NCBI GenBank assembly: GCA_903933715.1
Contig: CAIZLD010000008.1
Location: 1-59,634, forward strand
DNA: 59,634 bases
DNA from: an uncultured Spartobacteria bacterium
GTDB lineage: Bacteria > Verrucomicrobiota > Verrucomicrobiia > Chthoniobacterales > Chthoniobacteraceae
Reading direction: 5' to 3'
The position numbers were made by a program, and so were the translations under genes. The notes under the pieces were generated by a model. It did no database searches. It had not been told where the DNA came from and worked only from the letters and a program-made list of their open reading frames with translations. Numbering within the stretch: the stretch's first letter is position 1; each line of letters begins with the position of its first letter. Positions 10,526 through 34,725 of this stretch are shown one piece after another.

Positions 10526-11131
10526 ATGCTCGAAACACCGAAAATCCTCGCGTTTGCGGGGAGCCTGCGAACTGGTTCGTTTAACAAACAGCTCATTCGC
10601 ATCGCGGTCGATGCGGCGCGCGGGGCGGGAGCGGAGGTGACGCTCATCGATTTGCTCGACTTCCCATTGCCCGTCTTGAACCAGGACGACGAAGCCGCCC
10701 ACGGGCTCCCCGCAAACGCCCGCAAACTAAAGGAACTATTTAAAAGCCATCATGGGTTCATGATTGCCTCGCCCGAATACAACAGCTCCATCCCCGGCGT
10801 GCTCAAAAACGTGATCGACTGGGTCTCCCGGGCTGAACCGGCCGACGAGCCGCCGCTGATCGCCTACAAAGGCAAAACGTGCGCCTTGATGAGCGCCTCG
10901 CCGGGGGCGCTGGGGGGATTGCGGGCACTGGTTCATGTCAGGGCCATCCTCGGCAACATCGGGGTGTTCGTGCTTCCCGGCCAAGTCTGCATCCCGACGG
11001 CCGACCAGCTTTTCAATAGCGATGGCTCCCTCAACGATCTTCAAAAAACAGCCGCCGTCCGAGCCCTGGCCCGCAGCCTCGTGGAGGTGACGCGGAAAAT
11101 GGAGCCGCCTACCGTGCAAACGGGTTCATAA
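10526..11131 (+). CDS. NADPH-dependent FMN reductase family flavoprotein
   Basis: The 201-residue protein has the flavodoxin-like fold of the FMN_red family. The phosphate-binding loop is FAGSLRTGSFNKQL near the N terminus, and the flavin-binding block SPEYNSSIPGVLKNVIDWVS lies around residues 86-105, as in ChrR, azoreductase-like and NADPH:quinone reductases. It probably reduces quinones, FMN or azo/metal compounds in the cytoplasm. It is transcribed divergently from the MFS transporter and its 3' end overlaps the convergent zinc-ribbon gene by 23 bp. The physiological substrate cannot be told from sequence. Confidence 0.9.
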   Translation: MLETPKILAFAGSLRTGSFNKQLIRIAVDAARGAGAEVTLIDLLDFPLPVLNQDDEAAHGLPANARKLKELFKSHHGFMIASPEYNSSIPGVLKNVIDWVSRAEPADEPPLIAYKGKTCALMSASPGALGGLRALVHVRAILGNIGVFVLPGQVCIPTADQLFNSDGSLNDLQKTAAVRALARSLVEVTRKMEPPTVQTGS

Positions 11132-11477
11132 GCAGCGGTTCGCCGCAGTACATGCAGCGCACGCTTTGTTTGGCGACGATGCGCTGGCATTTCGGGCACG
11201 GCTCGGGAGGCGTCGCGGCGACTTTGCCATCCAGATGCCCATCGCGGACATCGATTTGGACGATCTGGCGGAGGAGTTCTTGCTCTTCCAGGCCATGCTT
11301 TTCCTTTAAAATCGTCCAGAGCGCCTCGGTAATGATCAGCAGGCGTTCGACTTGCGTCTTGAGTTGGGCAATTTCCGAAACTCCCGTCGCAGAATTCAAG
11401 CGCACCGGAATCGGCTCGGAATCGGGGGAATTGGGCCAGGTCGTCATGGCTCGCAGAATAACGCCAACGCGGGCCAT
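11109..11477 (-). CDS. Small zinc-ribbon protein of unknown function
   Basis: A protein of 122 residues (112 if started at the ATG at 11447) whose C terminus holds a treble-clef or zinc-ribbon-like motif, CPKCQRIVAKQSVRCMYCGEP. The middle is predicted helical or coiled (EIAQLKTQVERLLIITEALWTILKEKHGLEEQELL). I favour the ATG at 11477 because AGGGTG lies a few bases upstream; any earlier start would run into the repeat element at 11496. No enzymatic function is apparent. It may be a small regulatory or structural protein. The 3' end overlaps the FMN reductase gene. Confidence 0.65.
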   Translation of the reverse strand: MARVGVILRAMTTWPNSPDSEPIPVRLNSATGVSEIAQLKTQVERLLIITEALWTILKEKHGLEEQELLRQIVQIDVRDGHLDGKVAATPPEPCPKCQRIVAKQSVRCMYCGEPLLMNPFAR

Positions 11478-11495: not shown

Positions 11496-11762
11496 CAGGG
11501 CAAACGCATCAAAACCCGGAGGGTTTACAGCAAATAGCCGGTGGTTGAGCAGAGCGATACCCCCGGAACAGGGCGTCATCTGCGCCTCACCCCGCAAGGG
11601 GTGGCAGACGCCATCGTTTGCTGCCACCCCGTTGCGGTGAATTTCGGGATCGACTTCAAACCGGTGGTGTCGCTGACGCTCAACCACCGGCTAGTTGCTT
11701 TGAACCCGTTGGGTTCACGAGTGACTCTATCATTCGTACCTGTTTTTGATGCGTTTGCCCTG
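11496..11762. repeat. Nested palindromic repeat element, copy A (variant terminal repeat)
   Basis: The 267 bp element is bounded by a perfect 19 bp inverted repeat, CAGGGCAAACGCATCAAAA (11496-11514) and its complement (11744-11762). Inside are arms starting AGCCGGTGGTTGAGC (from 11536) and their near-complement (11661-11692), then an imperfect inner pair around CACCCCGCAAGGGGTGG. The core matches copies B-D, but the outermost sequence is unrelated to their GGCTGAATCGACATTC ends. Short frames through it encode repeat-derived peptides and are not genes. It separates the zinc-ribbon gene from the fur-suf operon. Confidence 0.9.
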
Positions 11763-11786
11763 TATTCCGCATTCCAAAATTCCTTA

Positions 11787-14542: not shown

Positions 14543-15799
14543 ATGAGCATCCCTTTATTTACCGACGAACCTGTTCGCGCGGCCGCCCGGCAACTTTTCA
14601 AGTCGCTGCCGATGCCCGGCCGCCTGGATGAAGCCTGGCGTTTTGCCGATACCAAGGCGCTCGACATGAGCCCGTTTGAGGCAATGCCCGCGCCGATCGA
14701 CGGCGATCCCGCCCGTTTTGTCAAAAGATCTCGGGGGCTTACCGAAACGGCCGGGAAGATGATTTTTGCCAACGACCAACTTCTTTCCCGCGAGGTGCTC
14801 GATGCTTCGCTGGCTCAAAAAGGGGTTATCTGGAAACCGCTGGAAATCGCGGCGGCGGAACACCCGGAGCTGTTCGCCAAACATTTCATGGCTCACGGAG
14901 CGCCGCTCGGAAGTGAGAAATTCGCGGCATTGCACGCGGCCTCTGTGAAAACCGGAACGTTCCTTTATGTGCCGCGCGGCGTGGAGATCGATTTGCCCAT
15001 CGAGGTCTTTCACTGGCTCTCGGGCGAGAAAAACTCGAGCTTCCCGCACACGTTGCTCATTGCCGAGGCGAACAGCAAAGTGACGTTGGTTGATTATTTC
15101 ACCGGTGCCCAACCGGACGCATCCGGGTTGGCCGTCGGCTTCAACGATTTGTATGTTGGCGAGGGGGCACAGCTTAATTACGTGTGCGTTCAAAACTGGA
15201 GCCTCCAGACGCTCGCCATCCAGGTCAACAACACCGTTGTGGGGGCCAATGCTTCGGCCAAGAGCCTCAACGTCAATCTCGGCGCACGCTACGCCCGCAA
15301 CGAAAGCGCATCCCAGCTCATCGGGGAGGGGGGGCGCAGCGACATGCTTTCGGTTACCGTGGCCGATGGCGACCAGGTGTTTGATCAACGGACATTCCAG
15401 GATCACCTCGCGCCGGGAGCTTTTAGCGATCTTCTTTACAAAAATGCTTTGGACGGCGGGGCCCGGACGATCTTCGCCGGGATGATCAAGGTCGAGCCCG
15501 ACGCCCATCGCACCGACGCCTACCAGAAAGTTCGAAACCTCCTTTTAAGCGACAACGCCGAAGCCAACTCGATGCCGGGGCTCGAAATTCTCGCCGATGA
15601 AGTGCGCTGTTCGCACGGGGCGACCAGTGGGCAAATCGAGCCGGAAGAATTGTTTTACCTGCTGGCGCGCGGCATCTCCAAAAACAATGCGCAGCGGTTG
15701 CTCGTGCAGGGATTCTTGCAGGAAGCAATCGACCGGATCGGCAATCCGGCTCTCGCCGAAAAACTGGGCGAAATCATGCGGGCGAAGTTTGGGAACTAG
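14543..15799 (+). CDS. sufD: Fe-S cluster assembly protein SufD
   Basis: SufD (418 aa) is the SufB paralogue of the SufBCD complex; the conserved region includes GTFLYVPRGVEIDLPIEV, ARYARNESASQLIGEGG and EVRCSHGATSGQIEPEELFYL, with the family's C-terminal histidine (CSHGAT). An in-frame ATG at 14513 would add ten residues encoded by a CGCAAAGGCGCAAAG intergenic repeat, so I choose the ATG at 14543. The TAG stop is the first codon of repeat element B. No sufS, sufE or sufU follows in the window, so the cysteine desulfurase must be elsewhere. Confidence 0.96.
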   Translation: MSIPLFTDEPVRAAARQLFKSLPMPGRLDEAWRFADTKALDMSPFEAMPAPIDGDPARFVKRSRGLTETAGKMIFANDQLLSREVLDASLAQKGVIWKPLEIAAAEHPELFAKHFMAHGAPLGSEKFAALHAASVKTGTFLYVPRGVEIDLPIEVFHWLSGEKNSSFPHTLLIAEANSKVTLVDYFTGAQPDASGLAVGFNDLYVGEGAQLNYVCVQNWSLQTLAIQVNNTVVGANASAKSLNVNLGARYARNESASQLIGEGGRSDMLSVTVADGDQVFDQRTFQDHLAPGAFSDLLYKNALDGGARTIFAGMIKVEPDAHRTDAYQKVRNLLLSDNAEANSMPGLEILADEVRCSHGATSGQIEPEELFYLLARGISKNNAQRLLVQGFLQEAIDRIGNPALAEKLGEIMRAKFGN

Positions 15800-16096
15800 G
15801 CTGAATCAATATTCAAAACCCGCCGCACCCCGGAGCCGCCGCACCCCGGAGGGGTTGCCAGCGAATAGCCGGTGGTTGAGCGTTAGCGACACCACCGGTT
15901 CAATGCAAAACCGCGTCTCACCCCAAAGGGGTGGCAGAAAACGAGGCAATGCTCTCTGCCACCCCTTTGGGGTGAATTCTTCCATTGCCTATCCGGTGGT
16001 GTCGCTAACGCTCAACCACCGGCTATGGGCTTCAAACCCTTTGGGTTTGGCTCGATCCCTTTGGGTTTGGCTCGATCCGAATGTCGATTCAACCTA
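15797..16096. repeat. Nested palindromic repeat element, copy B
   Basis: The 300 bp element starts at the TAG stop of sufD (TAGGCTGAATC) and ends with GAATGTCGATTCAACCTA. Terminal arms match 14/16 and 15/16 to the perfect ends of copy D. Perfect 32 bp inverted arms lie at 15867-15898 and 15993-16024; a 19 bp inner pair reads CACCCCAAAGGGGTGGCAG and its complement. The extra length comes from two short tandem duplications, one near 15820-15850 and one of 21 bp near 16040-16078. It fills almost all of the 427 bp between sufD and the U32 gene; peptide-coding frames across it are not genes. Confidence 0.92.
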
Positions 16097-24672: not shown

Positions 24673-25896
24673 GTGCAGGCTCAAAAGCCGCCGCGGCATC
24701 TCCCGCTTTTGCTCGGGACGCTGACCGCTTTTGGTCCGCTCTCGATCGACATGTACCTGCCCGCGTTCCCTCAAATTACGAGGGAAATGGCGGCGCGGCC
24801 CGGCGCGGTCTCGTTGACATTGGCCGTGTTCCTGCTGGCGGTGAGTTTGAGCCAGGTTTTTTACGGTCCGCTGGCCGACCGTTACGGACGCCGCAAGCCG
24901 TTGCTGGTCGGCTGCGTTCTCTACGCGCTCGGCTCGCTCGGGTGCGCTTTGGCCCCTTCCATGGGAATCCTCATTGCGGCCCGTGCGGTGCAGGCATTGG
25001 GCGGGGCGGCGGGGATGGTGGTGGCCCGGGCGGTCGTGCGGGATGTTTACCATGAACGGGAGGCGGCCCGCGTGTTTTCGGAACTGATGCTGGTGATGGG
25101 GGCCGCGCCGATCCTGGCCCCGTGGCTCGGCGGGAAAATCCTGCTCTTGGGAAGCTGGCGGCTGATTTTCTTCCTGCTGGCGGGGTTTGGTGCATTCTGC
25201 TGGTGGATGACGAACCGGGGATTGCCGGAAACGCTGCCGCATCCGAATCGCTCGCGGGAAAATCTCCGGGGTGTGTTCGATACTTTTGGCGCGTTGCTGG
25301 CGAACCGGCGTTTTCTCGGATACGCGCTGGTGGCCGGGTTCACGGCGGGAACGAATTTCGCTTACATCTCCGGCTCGTCGTTCGTCTATATCGAGTTGCA
25401 CGGGATTTCCGCCCAACATTTTGGCTATTTTTTTGGAGCCAACGCGCTCGGGTTGATCGGGGCCGCGCAGATCAACCGGTTGCTTTTGCGAAGATTCGCG
25501 CCGGAGTCGATTCTCGATGGCTCGCTTACGATCAATATGATGGCCGGGTGCGCGCTGGTGGCTTGCGGGGCGACGAACTGGGGCGGGCTCCCGGCGTTGG
25601 CTGCGCTGCTTTTTGTCTCGTTGGCGAGCGTGGGATTGACGTTCCCGAATTTAATGGCGGCGGCGATGGCTCCGTTTGGACGGATGGCGGGAAGCGCCTC
25701 GGCAGTTCTCGGGACGGTCCAATTTGCCGTTGGGGCTTTGGCTGGGGCGTTGGTCGGTTTATTGCACAACGGGACGGCATTGCCGATGACGGCGGTGGTC
25801 GCATCGTGCGCCACGGGCGGATTGATTGCCTTGCGCACGCTGGCCCCGAGCAAACGGTTGCCGCGCCCGTTTGTGCTGTCGGTGCCGGAGGATTAG
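24673..25896 (+). CDS. MFS multidrug efflux transporter, Bcr/CflA type
   Basis: A 407-residue, twelve-helix transporter. The start LLLGTLTAFGPLSIDMYLPAFPQI and the motif A loop YGPLADRYGRRKPLLVG are characteristic of Bcr/CflA drug:H+ antiporters; motif C-like glycine-rich VQALGGAAGMVVARAVVRDV follows. I start at the GTG at 24673, one base after the alaS stop, with GGGGAG upstream. Its TAG stop is the first codon of repeat element C. Bicyclomycin, sulfonamide or other substrates are known in the family; the substrate here is unknown. Confidence 0.9.
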   Translation: MQAQKPPRHLPLLLGTLTAFGPLSIDMYLPAFPQITREMAARPGAVSLTLAVFLLAVSLSQVFYGPLADRYGRRKPLLVGCVLYALGSLGCALAPSMGILIAARAVQALGGAAGMVVARAVVRDVYHEREAARVFSELMLVMGAAPILAPWLGGKILLLGSWRLIFFLLAGFGAFCWWMTNRGLPETLPHPNRSRENLRGVFDTFGALLANRRFLGYALVAGFTAGTNFAYISGSSFVYIELHGISAQHFGYFFGANALGLIGAAQINRLLLRRFAPESILDGSLTINMMAGCALVACGATNWGGLPALAALLFVSLASVGLTFPNLMAAAMAPFGRMAGSASAVLGTVQFAVGALAGALVGLLHNGTALPMTAVVASCATGGLIALRTLAPSKRLPRPFVLSVPED

Positions 25897-26157
25897 GCTG
25901 AATCGACCATTCAGGTCGAGCCAAACCCAAAGGGTTTGAAGCCGATAGCCGGTGGTTGAGCGAAGCGATACCACCGGGATAGGCAATGGAAGAATTCACC
26001 CCAAAGGGGTGGCAGAGAGCATTGCCTCGTTTTCTGCCACCCCTTTGGGGTGAGGCGCGGTTTTGCATTGAACCGGTGGTGTCGCTAACGCTCAACCACC
26101 GGCTATTCGCTGGCAACCCTCCGGGTTGCGGCGGCTTTTGGATGTCGATTCAGATTA
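25894..26157. repeat. Nested palindromic repeat element, copy C (inverted relative to B)
   Basis: The 264 bp element starts at the TAG of the transporter gene. Left end GGCTGAATCGACCATTC has one extra base; the right end GATGTCGATTCAGATTA is worn. Arms lie at 25947-25977 and 26073-26104. As a whole its reverse complement matches copy B closely. It fills the 267 bp between two convergent genes, where it may act as a bidirectional terminator. The helicase stop lies 7 bp beyond its right end. Confidence 0.92.
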
Positions 26158-28613: not shown

Positions 28614-29843
28614 ATGGAACATTCAAATTACAATCCAGAATCCGTTGGAATCGAGGCGGTCCGCCCGCCCCAGGAAAAAAAGAACCCGGCGCACCTTCCG
28701 GCTATTGATGGTCTGCGTGGGCTGGCCGCCATGATGGTGGTTTTTTTCCACGCTTGGGGCATGAACGGTTTTTTGCTATTCCCGCAGTTCAGCCTATTTG
28801 GAGTCGCCATCCCGGTTTACAAGCTGTTCACCCCTGGGTATAGCGGGGTTTATCTCTTTTTTGTTTTGAGCGGATTTTGTCTGAGCTACCCGTTCCTGGC
28901 CAACCCGGGGCGCAAGGATGACTGGCCGGGATATGCGCTGAACCGGGTTCGCCGCATTTTGCCGCCGTATCTGATCTCATTTGTCATCCTTTTCCTTATC
29001 GGTCAATGGCTTCACCAATGGCAGGTTTTGCCTGGGGAAAAATTCCTGTTCGAGCCGTTTAAGACCAACCGATTCATCAAAGAACTGTTCCTGATTCAAA
29101 AAAGCCGTGTCTGCGCTTCCTACTGGACGCTGGTGCTGGAATGGCGCTGGTATCTCTTGTTCCCCGCGCTGCTTATTCTGGCCCGGCGCGTTTCCCCGGC
29201 GATCGTGGTGGCCGTCCTCTATGTGATTGCCTATTTCGCACAAAAGCCCTTTTTCTCCGGTCCACTGCACAATGCCACCTTCCTGCCGTTGGTCACTCTT
29301 TTGCCGGTATTCGCCTTTGGCATCTGGGCCGCGCATCTGACGGCCCGGCCTCGTGAACGGCTGCAGCGCTGGGAACGCGGCCTCCTCAAAGGGCCGCTTT
29401 GGGGGCTTGTTGCCGGCTTATTCTGGGCGGTGTTGCTGTCTCCTTCCGTCCGCCCGGGCGAAACGATAAAACTGGCAACTCTCTGGCAGCTATTGCAGCC
29501 GATGGGAGTTCAACCTCCGAGCTGGGTTGGCTCGTCGTTTGAATTTGCGATCGTATGGGGGCCGCTCTACTTCTTCCTGATGCTGGCCGCGCTCAATCAT
29601 CCGGGATTGCGGCGGATTTTTGGCTCAAAGCCTTTTGTGAAGCTGGGCATGGTTTCCTACTCGATTTACCTGTTGCAGGAGCCGGTGATCCGCGCGGGAC
29701 ACTACTTCATTGATCGGCCGGAACACGGCCCGCTCAGGCTTCTCGCCCACCATTACCTATTAACCCCGGCTCTCTGCGTCCTCGCCGGTTGGGCGTTTTA
29801 TTACATTGGCGAACGCCCGTTCCTCAAGCGGTCCAAACGCTAG
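28614..29843 (+). CDS. Acyltransferase 3 family integral membrane protein
   Basis: The 409-residue protein has about ten hydrophobic segments. It begins, after a short soluble N terminus, with LPAIDGLRGLAAMMVVFFHAW, the signature of the acyltransferase-3 (OafA/YrhL) family with its essential histidine. The RxxR-type loop is at NRVRRILPPYL. These enzymes acetylate or otherwise acylate surface polysaccharides, peptidoglycan or lipids; the acceptor cannot be told. The TAG stop coincides with the edge of repeat element D. Confidence 0.92.
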   Translation: MEHSNYNPESVGIEAVRPPQEKKNPAHLPAIDGLRGLAAMMVVFFHAWGMNGFLLFPQFSLFGVAIPVYKLFTPGYSGVYLFFVLSGFCLSYPFLANPGRKDDWPGYALNRVRRILPPYLISFVILFLIGQWLHQWQVLPGEKFLFEPFKTNRFIKELFLIQKSRVCASYWTLVLEWRWYLLFPALLILARRVSPAIVVAVLYVIAYFAQKPFFSGPLHNATFLPLVTLLPVFAFGIWAAHLTARPRERLQRWERGLLKGPLWGLVAGLFWAVLLSPSVRPGETIKLATLWQLLQPMGVQPPSWVGSSFEFAIVWGPLYFFLMLAALNHPGLRRIFGSKPFVKLGMVSYSIYLLQEPVIRAGHYFIDRPEHGPLRLLAHHYLLTPALCVLAGWAFYYIGERPFLKRSKR

Positions 29844-30102
29844 GCTGAATCGACATTCGAAAGCCGCCGCAACCCGGAGGGTTGCCAGCGAATAGCCGGT
29901 GGTTGAGCGTTAGCGACACCACCGGATGAGGTGTTGGAAAGAATTCACCCCAAAGGGGTGGCAGCGCCATCGCCTCGTTTTCTGCCACCCCTTTGGGGTG
30001 AGGCGCGGTTTTGCATGACCGGTGGTGTCGCTAACGCTCAACCACCGGCTATGGGCTTCAAACCCTTTGGGTTTGGCTCGATCTGAATGTCGATTCAGCC
30101 TA
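29841..30102. repeat. Nested palindromic repeat element, copy D (best preserved)
   Basis: The 262 bp element has perfect 16 bp terminal repeats GGCTGAATCGACATTC (29843-29858) and its complement (30085-30100), flanked by TA on both sides. Perfect 32 bp arms lie at 29894-29925 and 30019-30050, and perfect 19 bp arms at 29946-29964 and 29982-30000. Both convergent neighbours stop at its edges: acyltransferase TAG at 29841-29843, and the DUF1622 gene TAG (minus strand) at 30100-30102. The core between the 32 bp arms is in the opposite orientation to that of copy B relative to the outer part. Confidence 0.95.
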
Positions 30103-34135: not shown

Positions 34136-34245
34136 GCTGCCCGCTTGTTTTCAATTCTCTCGCAAAGACGCAAAGGCGCAAAGGAAAGGCAAAAGAATTC
34201 CTATTCTTGACGCTCGTTTGGCAACTCGTTCCCAAACTCTGTGAC
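34136..34245. repeat. CGCAAAGACGCAAAGG repeat and truncated lead-in copy
   Basis: Just after the topoisomerase stop lies a CTCGCAAAGACGCAAAGG repeat (from about 34157), then a truncated CTCGTTCCCAAACTCTGTG fragment related to the tandem unit that follows. No coding sequence is seen. Confidence 0.65.
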
Positions 34246-34725
34246 CTCGTTCCCAATCTCCAGATTGGGAACGCACTTGTCTTGGAAACTCTGTTTCCCT
34301 CGCGCTTGCAATGGCTCCGGGCGCATCGGTTGATCCGAGCCTTACGAAACGGAGTTTCGCAGACAATGGCATTCCCAAACAGAGTTTGGGAACGAGGTAA
34401 AAAAGGCGCAAAGGCTTAAAGGAGAGGAGCTCTTTTGCCTTTCCTTTGCGCCTTTGCGTCTTTGCGAGAAATAAAGTCCATTCCTTTGTTCTCGTTCCCA
34501 ATCTCCTGATTGGGAACGCACTTGTCTTGGAAACTCTGTTTCCCCTCGCGCTTGCAATGGCTCCGGGCGCATCGGTTGATCCGAGCCTTACGAAACGGAG
34601 TTTCGCAGACAATGGCATTCCCAAACAGAGTTTGGGAACGAGGTAAAAAAGGCGCAATGCCTTAAAGGAGAGGAGCTCTTTTGCCTTTCCTTTGCGCCTT
34701 TGCGAGAAATAAAGTCCATTCCTTG
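34246..34725. repeat. Two tandem copies of a 245-bp repeat
   Basis: Unit 1 (34246-34490) and unit 2 (34491-34725) are almost identical, with a period of 245 bp. Each opens with the hairpin TTCCCAATCT-CC-AGATTGGGAA (last base pairs vary), contains CGAAAC-GGA-GTTTCG, and has outer arms CTCGTTCCCAA and TTGGGAACGAG. A GCCTTTCCTTTGCGCC stretch, complementary to the CGCAAAGG family, closes each unit. Differences are single bases plus one lost GTCTTTGCG at the end of unit 2. The region fills the 603 bp gap between the convergent topB and prc genes; frames across it are not genes. Confidence 0.92.

Follow-up and report, generated by a model that had tools for sequence, protein, structure and literature searches.

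How one repeat core comes to lie between two unrelated sets of ends is the question raised by copy A, a 267-bp element at positions 11496-11762 of the stretch of DNA analysed here (59,634 nucleotides of contig CAIZLD010000008.1, from an uncultured Spartobacteria bacterium of the Chthoniobacteraceae; hereafter, the window). The original prediction, made from the window alone, offered two readings: that ends have been exchanged as modules around a conserved core, or that two subfamilies exist. It described copy A as ending in a 19-bp terminal inverted repeat that is perfect and has no relation to the ends of three further copies (B–D), which was confirmed in the sequence; the ends of B–D are 16 bp long. 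The companion statement, that copy A follows the same plan from AACCCGGAGGGTT inward, held for the order of the hairpins, which is that of B–D, and not for the sequence itself, which is not close (centres 62–71% identical).

Copy A is a discrete unit with duplicated flanks

The features of copy A and the positions of the other three copies are collected in Table 1. Copy A is short and non-coding, and none of the open reading frames crossing it was tied to a protein family. Its flanks carry a duplication, TATTCCGCAA and TATTCCGCAT, that the original prediction did not mention; by chance, at least 9/10 bases would match at a fixed position with a probability of ~3e-5. Folded as single-stranded DNA, copy A reaches -96 kcal/mol versus -42.9 for shuffles (z -13.6), and Rfam gave no match above the gathering score within the window.

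The boundaries of the core are discrete. At the left, the core abuts the terminal inverted repeat (TIR) exactly at the outer hairpin AACCCGGAGGGTT, which shares two bases with the TIR. The left end is without the CAGG extension, which the right end retains, as do the other A-ended MITEs of the genome; the extension CATCAAAA(A)CAGG is found at the right end of copy A and in the A-ended MITEs L033, L036, and L039, which hold other cargo.

Table 1. Coordinates in the window of the parts of copy A and of copies B–D
Feature	Position	Strand	Remark
Target-site duplication, left, TATTCCGCAA	11486..11495		9/10 identical to 11763-11772
Terminal inverted repeat, left, 19-bp, ISAs1-family type, CAGGGCAAACGCATCAAAA	11496..11514	+	common to ISAs1 transposase-bearing elements
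Left RAYT arm, outer hairpin AACCCGGAGGGTT	11513..11525	+	compensatory changes across genomes
REP-like hairpin, TAG + CCGGTGGT...ACCCCCGG	11535..11566	+	
Central hairpins, paired, TCACCCC..GGGGTGGCAG / CTGCCACCCC..GCGGTGAA	11587..11641		
REP-like hairpin, inverted, CCGGTGGTGTCGCTGACGCTCAACCACCGGCTA	11661..11693	-	
Right arm, outer hairpin AACCCGTTGGGTT	11703..11715	-	
Right spacer, arm to TIR	11716..11743		also in sister copy L002/L006
Terminal inverted repeat, right, 19-bp	11744..11762	-	exact reverse complement of CAGGGCAAACGCATCAAAA
Target-site duplication, right, TATTCCGCAT	11763..11772		
Copy B	15799..16094		core plan as in A, IS5-family-type ends
Copy C	about 25896..26155		core plan as in A, IS5-family-type ends
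Copy D	29843..30100		core plan as in A, IS5-family-type ends, exact 16-mers both sides

The ends of copy A are those of ISAs1-family elements

An 18-base version of the A end was found in at least 118 stretches of GTDB genomes, among the matches listed in cyanobacteria, Chloroflexi, Bacteroidetes, Synergistetes, Legionella, and others. Such ends enclose ISAs1 transposases in four elements. One is L155 (Chitinophagaceae), a 1189-bp element whose ISAs1 transposase has 366 aa (NF033564, E 9e-118) and whose 10-bp duplication is perfect; L137 has a 370-aa ISAs1 transposase between such ends, L252 is a broken ISAs1 element in G003, of the window's own genus, and L253 holds an ISAs1 gene in G028, of the same family. 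The end matches 19/19 at both sides of copy A and within 2 mismatches in L155, L137, and L252.

The target duplications of ISAs1 elements are 8–10 bp long. That of copy A fits this length, which was also seen when all fetched loci were pooled and ends paired at a spacing within 1.4 kb. Flank duplications of at least 8/10 were present in 38 of these 55 ISAs1-ended pairs versus 3 of 2970 cross-pairings, and at 9/10 or better the counts were 32 of 55 and 0 of 2970. No ISAs1 gene was matched in the window's genome, the assembly of which is 97% complete, so any mobilisation in trans would here be past or have come from outside.

The ends of B–D are those of an IS5-family element

Among 213 genomes of the order, 4 contain the end shared by B–D, GGCTGAATCGACATTC. 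In G047 it bounds L391, an 826-bp element with 16/16 ends and a TA border, whose transposase, of the IS5 family, occupies two reading frames (NF033580, E 5e-37 and 2e-32). TA stands on both borders in 28 of the 43 copies of the window's genome with two such ends.

A 4-bp duplication (YTAR) was also considered for these ends and rejected: among the 28 copies with TA at both borders, to which the comparison was confined (15 two-ended copies being left out), equal 4-mers were seen in 8 (permutation p 0.26), and the TA is what remains. As a separate observation, the border TAA or TAG coincides with the stop codon of an adjacent long open reading frame in 22 of 34 ends facing an open frame of at least 100 codons, among 84 ends examined, where about one-third would be expected; examples in the window are the B-type ends at 15797-15799 and 29841-29843. 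Insertion of the IS5 type may favour stop codons.

The core is a palindrome of the kind that flanks RAYT genes

The window's genome has three Y1_Tnp genes. One of them (L264, C67:71206-71544; E 2.6e-23) lies exactly between two arms of the core type, in the order AACCC-GGGTT hairpin, TAGCC..CCGG hairpin, TCACCCC hairpin, and gene, followed by the inverted order. The gene occupies the point that corresponds to the central hairpins of copy A, and the core is thus a RAYT-flanking palindrome minus its gene. The arms of the other two RAYTs of the genome are alike in layout and different in sequence. Because the L264 arms are just 71–80% identical to A-type arms (at best 82.5% to B-type arms), the source of copy A may be a RAYT that is older or has been lost.

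RAYT genes were present in 47 of 57 relatives. For the order, 30 of 32 RAYT loci were usable (L270 and L274 were dropped for short flanks), and inverted arms exceeded the 95% level of mismatched left/right pairs at 22 of them, 9 exceeding the 99% level; this control is severe, because many loci share arms. In a protein tree of the RAYTs (29 of 32 loci), those with CCGGTGG-type arms form a cluster, except for L280, which falls outside. L294, within the cluster, was missed by the hairpin pattern and yet has arms of this type. Across 56 arms from many genomes, compensatory changes preserve both main hairpins (for example AACCC/GGGTT, GATGCC/GGCATC, and GTTCCC/GGGAAC), and at least two Watson-Crick types occur at 7 of the 15 consensus pairs.

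RAYT genes flanked by GTAG repeats are one kind described in the relevant passages of PMC3733652 and PMC6006769, which also describe TIRtrons, RAYT-like genes flanked by long inverted repeats, and report many GTAG repeats in the verrucomicrobium O. terrae. The core shares with REPINs the inverted pair and the many intergenic copies; it does not have the GTAG or GGAG tag 5' of the REP hairpin. The tag before its REP-like hairpin is ATAG and CTAG in copy A and ATAG in B-type copies, GTAG appearing in G014, G020, G049, and others. For this reason, the core is called RAYT-derived here and is not filed as a canonical GTAG REPIN.

Within the genome, end type predicts core sequence

The half-hairpin TAGCCGGTGGTTGAGC gave 185 matches at up to 2 mismatches, compared with 7 in reversed-pattern controls, which corresponds to about 90 copies in the genome. 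From the fetched loci, 61 distinct full copies were analysed, with B–D of the window excluded and 29 single halves set aside. B-type ends bound 43 of these on both sides and 12 on one, so that 55 of 61 carry at least one B-type end; 3 have neither end type and 3 are of type A, namely copy A, L002, and L003, the last with degenerate ends. The assembly consists of 77 contigs, many of which end in these repeats. L002 lies at the end of C41, and because L006, at the end of C55, has an identical 77-nt overlap with it, the two are probably a single split copy, which has a left end with 3 mismatches and no right TIR.

Copy A is the only core copy of this genome with both 19-bp ends intact. The absence of any other 19-bp-ended copy, named in the original prediction as the sign of a local rearrangement, was not what the genome showed: exact 19-mers also lie at C57:10998 and C59:20664, and allowing up to 3 mismatches gives 15 places. 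The centre of copy A is 95.8% identical to that of L002 and 76% to that of L003, versus a mean of 65.8% to the B-type copies (range as above), which among themselves average 85.7%. In the comparison of end versus core proposed with the original prediction, end type therefore predicts core sequence in this genome, so that ends have not recently been swapped onto a B-type core. In a tree built from the copy centres only, A, L002, and L003 grouped in 18% of bootstraps, and the A-ended copies do not clearly form a single clade.

The B-type copies show variation of their own. The central segment can face either way with respect to the outer arms (34 versus 18 of 55), as if flipped by recombination between inverted hairpins, and 3 of the 55 carry two Y arms. 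Three B-ended loci of the genome (L111, L125, and L132) have the core partly or fully deleted, down to two bare ends.

Ends and cargo are combined crosswise in relatives

In G020, which belongs to another genus of the family, an exact pattern search found 22 ISAs1-type ends. Ten ISAs1-ended elements of 194–506 bp carry the CCGGTGG core, L333 just half of it. Duplications of at least 8/10 accompany 8 of the 10 elements and are 10/10 in five. In the pooled set of ISAs1-ended pairs, L153 and L253 matched a loose core pattern and were excluded from the core-bearing count. The spacers from TIR to core differ from those of copy A and L003, so the core in G020 was probably captured independently of that in copy A. 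In G019, the B–D end bounds three elements of 262–283 bp (L392, L395, and L403) whose cargo shares its layout and part of its sequence with the RAYT arms of G019 itself, L412/L273 (ATCGCGGAGCGAT, GTAGCCG..., CGTCGCGGAGCGACG).

The cargos compared match best with the RAYT of the genome that carries them. In local alignments, the cargos of copies A and D gave their highest scores with their own RAYT, L264 (87 and 105, respectively); the ISAs1-MITE cargo of G020 scored 135 with the G020 RAYT L289 (next, 51), and the IS5-MITE cargo of G019 scored 55 with L412/L273 (next, 26). Both alternatives of the original prediction thus hold, each at its own depth: subfamilies within the genome and exchange of ends across genomes.

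The same ends also enclose cargos of other kinds. In the window's genome, A ends surround CTGCGGAT- and CGCAAAG-type repeats (L033 and L039), and B-type ends surround a different cargo, a CACGAAGGCGCAAAGG-type inverted repeat, at L129 (C9:3800-5000); GTCATCCTGAGCG repeats are a further example of the many unrelated cargos enclosed in this genome and in relatives.

Several further arrangements were seen. At C31:58657-58978 (L039/L042), an A-ended CGCAAAG element with an 8/10 duplication lies inside an older A-ended CTGCGGAT element. At loci L055 and L073 of G032, the core is bounded by a third end type, GGCAGTGAGGTCTAA. The window itself holds a tandem block pair at 34239-34704, containing CTCGTTCCCAATCTCC(A/T)GATTGGGAACG and CGCAAAG repeats and 98% identical over 165 nt.

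The idea that RAYT palindromes are also the cargo of ISAs1 MITEs in other phyla failed when tested: among 19 such MITEs, one had cargo matching RAYT flanks of the same genome (over 23 nt, in G059), with at most two RAYT loci compared per genome. Many of these MITEs visibly carry palindromic cargo.

Copy A lies upstream of a conserved fur promoter block

Copy A is placed between a 113-aa open reading frame on the minus strand (11112-11450), for which Pfam gave no match, and fur (PF01475, E 5e-22), downstream of which lie genes for a SufC-like ABC protein and then SufB. Orthologues of fur were found at E <=1e-66 in three of four genus relatives (G002, G003, and G004). In all three, the block CTTATTG(A/C)GAC..TCTCGATTTTGTTTTAGAATAATTCTTGATCTCA upstream of fur is largely kept and copy A is absent, which places copy A just upstream of the block without breaking it. 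A base-exact site without copy A was found in none of the genus relatives, in which only the promoter block aligns and the flank to its left is not alignable.

That copy A is the only copy in a divergent gap, as had been claimed, is right for the window if the 113-aa frame is a gene; across the genome, its relative L003 is also in a divergent gap. With rough ORF calls, A-type copies were divergent in 2 of 2 cases versus 4 of 34 others, which does not establish gene position as a property of the end type. The non-A-type copies, placed by ORF length only, lie mostly in convergent (16/34) or tandem (14/34) gaps.

Origin of copy A

Judged from sequence, it is highly probable that copy A is a chimeric MITE, in which ISAs1-family ends enclose a RAYT-derived palindrome and the whole was moved in trans by an ISAs1 transposase. 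The 19-bp ends would be recognised in trans by such a (DDE) transposase, and the 267-bp unit would have inserted as a whole in the gap upstream of fur-suf, leaving the 10-bp duplication. The interior would be a passenger, a palindrome whose paired arms, inverted and of three hairpins each, are normally found on either side of a Y1/RAYT transposase gene (HUH, single-strand), here absent. The related copies B–D hold similar cargo, bounded by IS5-family ends and a TA border. On this reading, RAYT palindromes have been taken up as cargo by two unrelated families of DDE transposons, in at least two genera for ISAs1 ends (this genome and G020) and in two for IS5 ends (this genome and G019). Uptake could have proceeded by entry of a RAYT palindrome into an existing MITE or by closing of IS ends around a palindrome.

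The first route, in which a RAYT or its ancestor put a gene-less palindrome into a ready ISAs1 MITE, is one way of reaching the chimera, and we give it a little less than an even chance. The discrete core borders and the left TIR met exactly at the outer hairpin speak for it, as does the CATCAAAA(A)CAGG extension, shared at the right end with L033, L036, and L039 and lost at the left; this loss together with the abutting core fits insertion into a ready MITE, and nesting is known from L039 inside its older A-ended host. Against it, no empty MITE with the right spacer of copy A was present among the fetched loci, and no footprint of RAYT insertion was found. The second route, by which two solo ends or internally deleted ISs closed around a palindrome already in the chromosome, is somewhat less likely than the first: the unrelated cargos held by the same ends (CGCAAAG- and CTGCGGAT-type and GTCATCCTGAGCG repeats) agree with it, and solo ends do occur (for example on C59 and C66), whereas the near-centred and symmetric cargo is not what two random solo ends would be expected to enclose.

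Readings without a chimera fare worse. A structured regulatory or terminator element under selection at its site, with incidental transposon-like ends, is improbable; the very strong fold and the mostly convergent or tandem placement of the non-A-type copies would suit it, but not the duplication, the existence of repeat families with IS ends, or the lack of copy A at the fur promoter of three genus relatives with a fur orthologue. Still less probable are two long-separated subfamilies of one element whose ends diverged by mutation. End and core do co-segregate here, by the identities given above, yet the two end types match, almost exactly, the termini of two different IS families, the borders differ (10-bp duplication versus TA), and crosswise combinations exist in G019 and G020. 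Local rearrangement of a single degenerate B copy, for which the unique pair of intact 19-bp ends of copy A in this genome might be cited, is scarcely credible given the sister copies L002/L006 and L003 elsewhere, the flanking duplication, and the exact end at other loci.

Relation to known systems

With the ISAs1-family (type I) MITEs, copy A shares the 19-bp ends, the 10-bp duplication, the size (125–380 bp), and the absence of a gene; unlike them, it has a RAYT-flanking palindrome as its interior and not a deleted ISAs1. B–D likewise agree with IS5-family MITEs in their 16-bp ends, identical to those of L391, and in the TA border, and differ in carrying a RAYT-type palindrome. TIMEs have Tn3-family ends, and we know of none with RAYT palindromes. 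Borrowed ends and foreign cargo are also features of TIMEs and mosaic non-autonomous transposons as presented in the relevant part of PMC4133298. The inverted hairpin arms, high copy number, and intergenic location are those of REPINs, REPtrons, and TIRtrons, as far as the pertinent passages of PMC3733652 and PMC6006769 describe them (see also PMC3116915), and here too the same arms flank a Y1 transposase gene within the genome. The present core differs in its three hairpins per arm, in its ATAG/CTAG tag (GTAG in several relatives), and in being bounded by DDE-transposon TIRs, an arrangement that the passages of PMC3733652 and PMC6006769 do not describe. In the portions of the literature on ISAs1, RAYT, REPIN, and MITE that a search brought up, RAYT palindromes within ISAs1 or IS5 ends were not found described, nor were ISAs1 and RAYT found together in one paper.

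REP and REPIN palindromes are generally held to spread via single-strand RAYT transposases, and RAYT mobility has been hard to demonstrate. Tentatively, capture of RAYT/REP palindromes may be recurrent, and many unexplained large palindromic repeats of bacterial genomes may be spread, beyond the action of RAYT, by ISAs1, IS5, or other IS ends, with free exchange between ends and cores. RAYT palindromes with DDE IS ends and target duplications would represent a second, testable dispersal route. Borrowed ends would explain how one core comes to have unrelated ends, and natural swaps of cores and ends would provide material for studying how MITEs are assembled.
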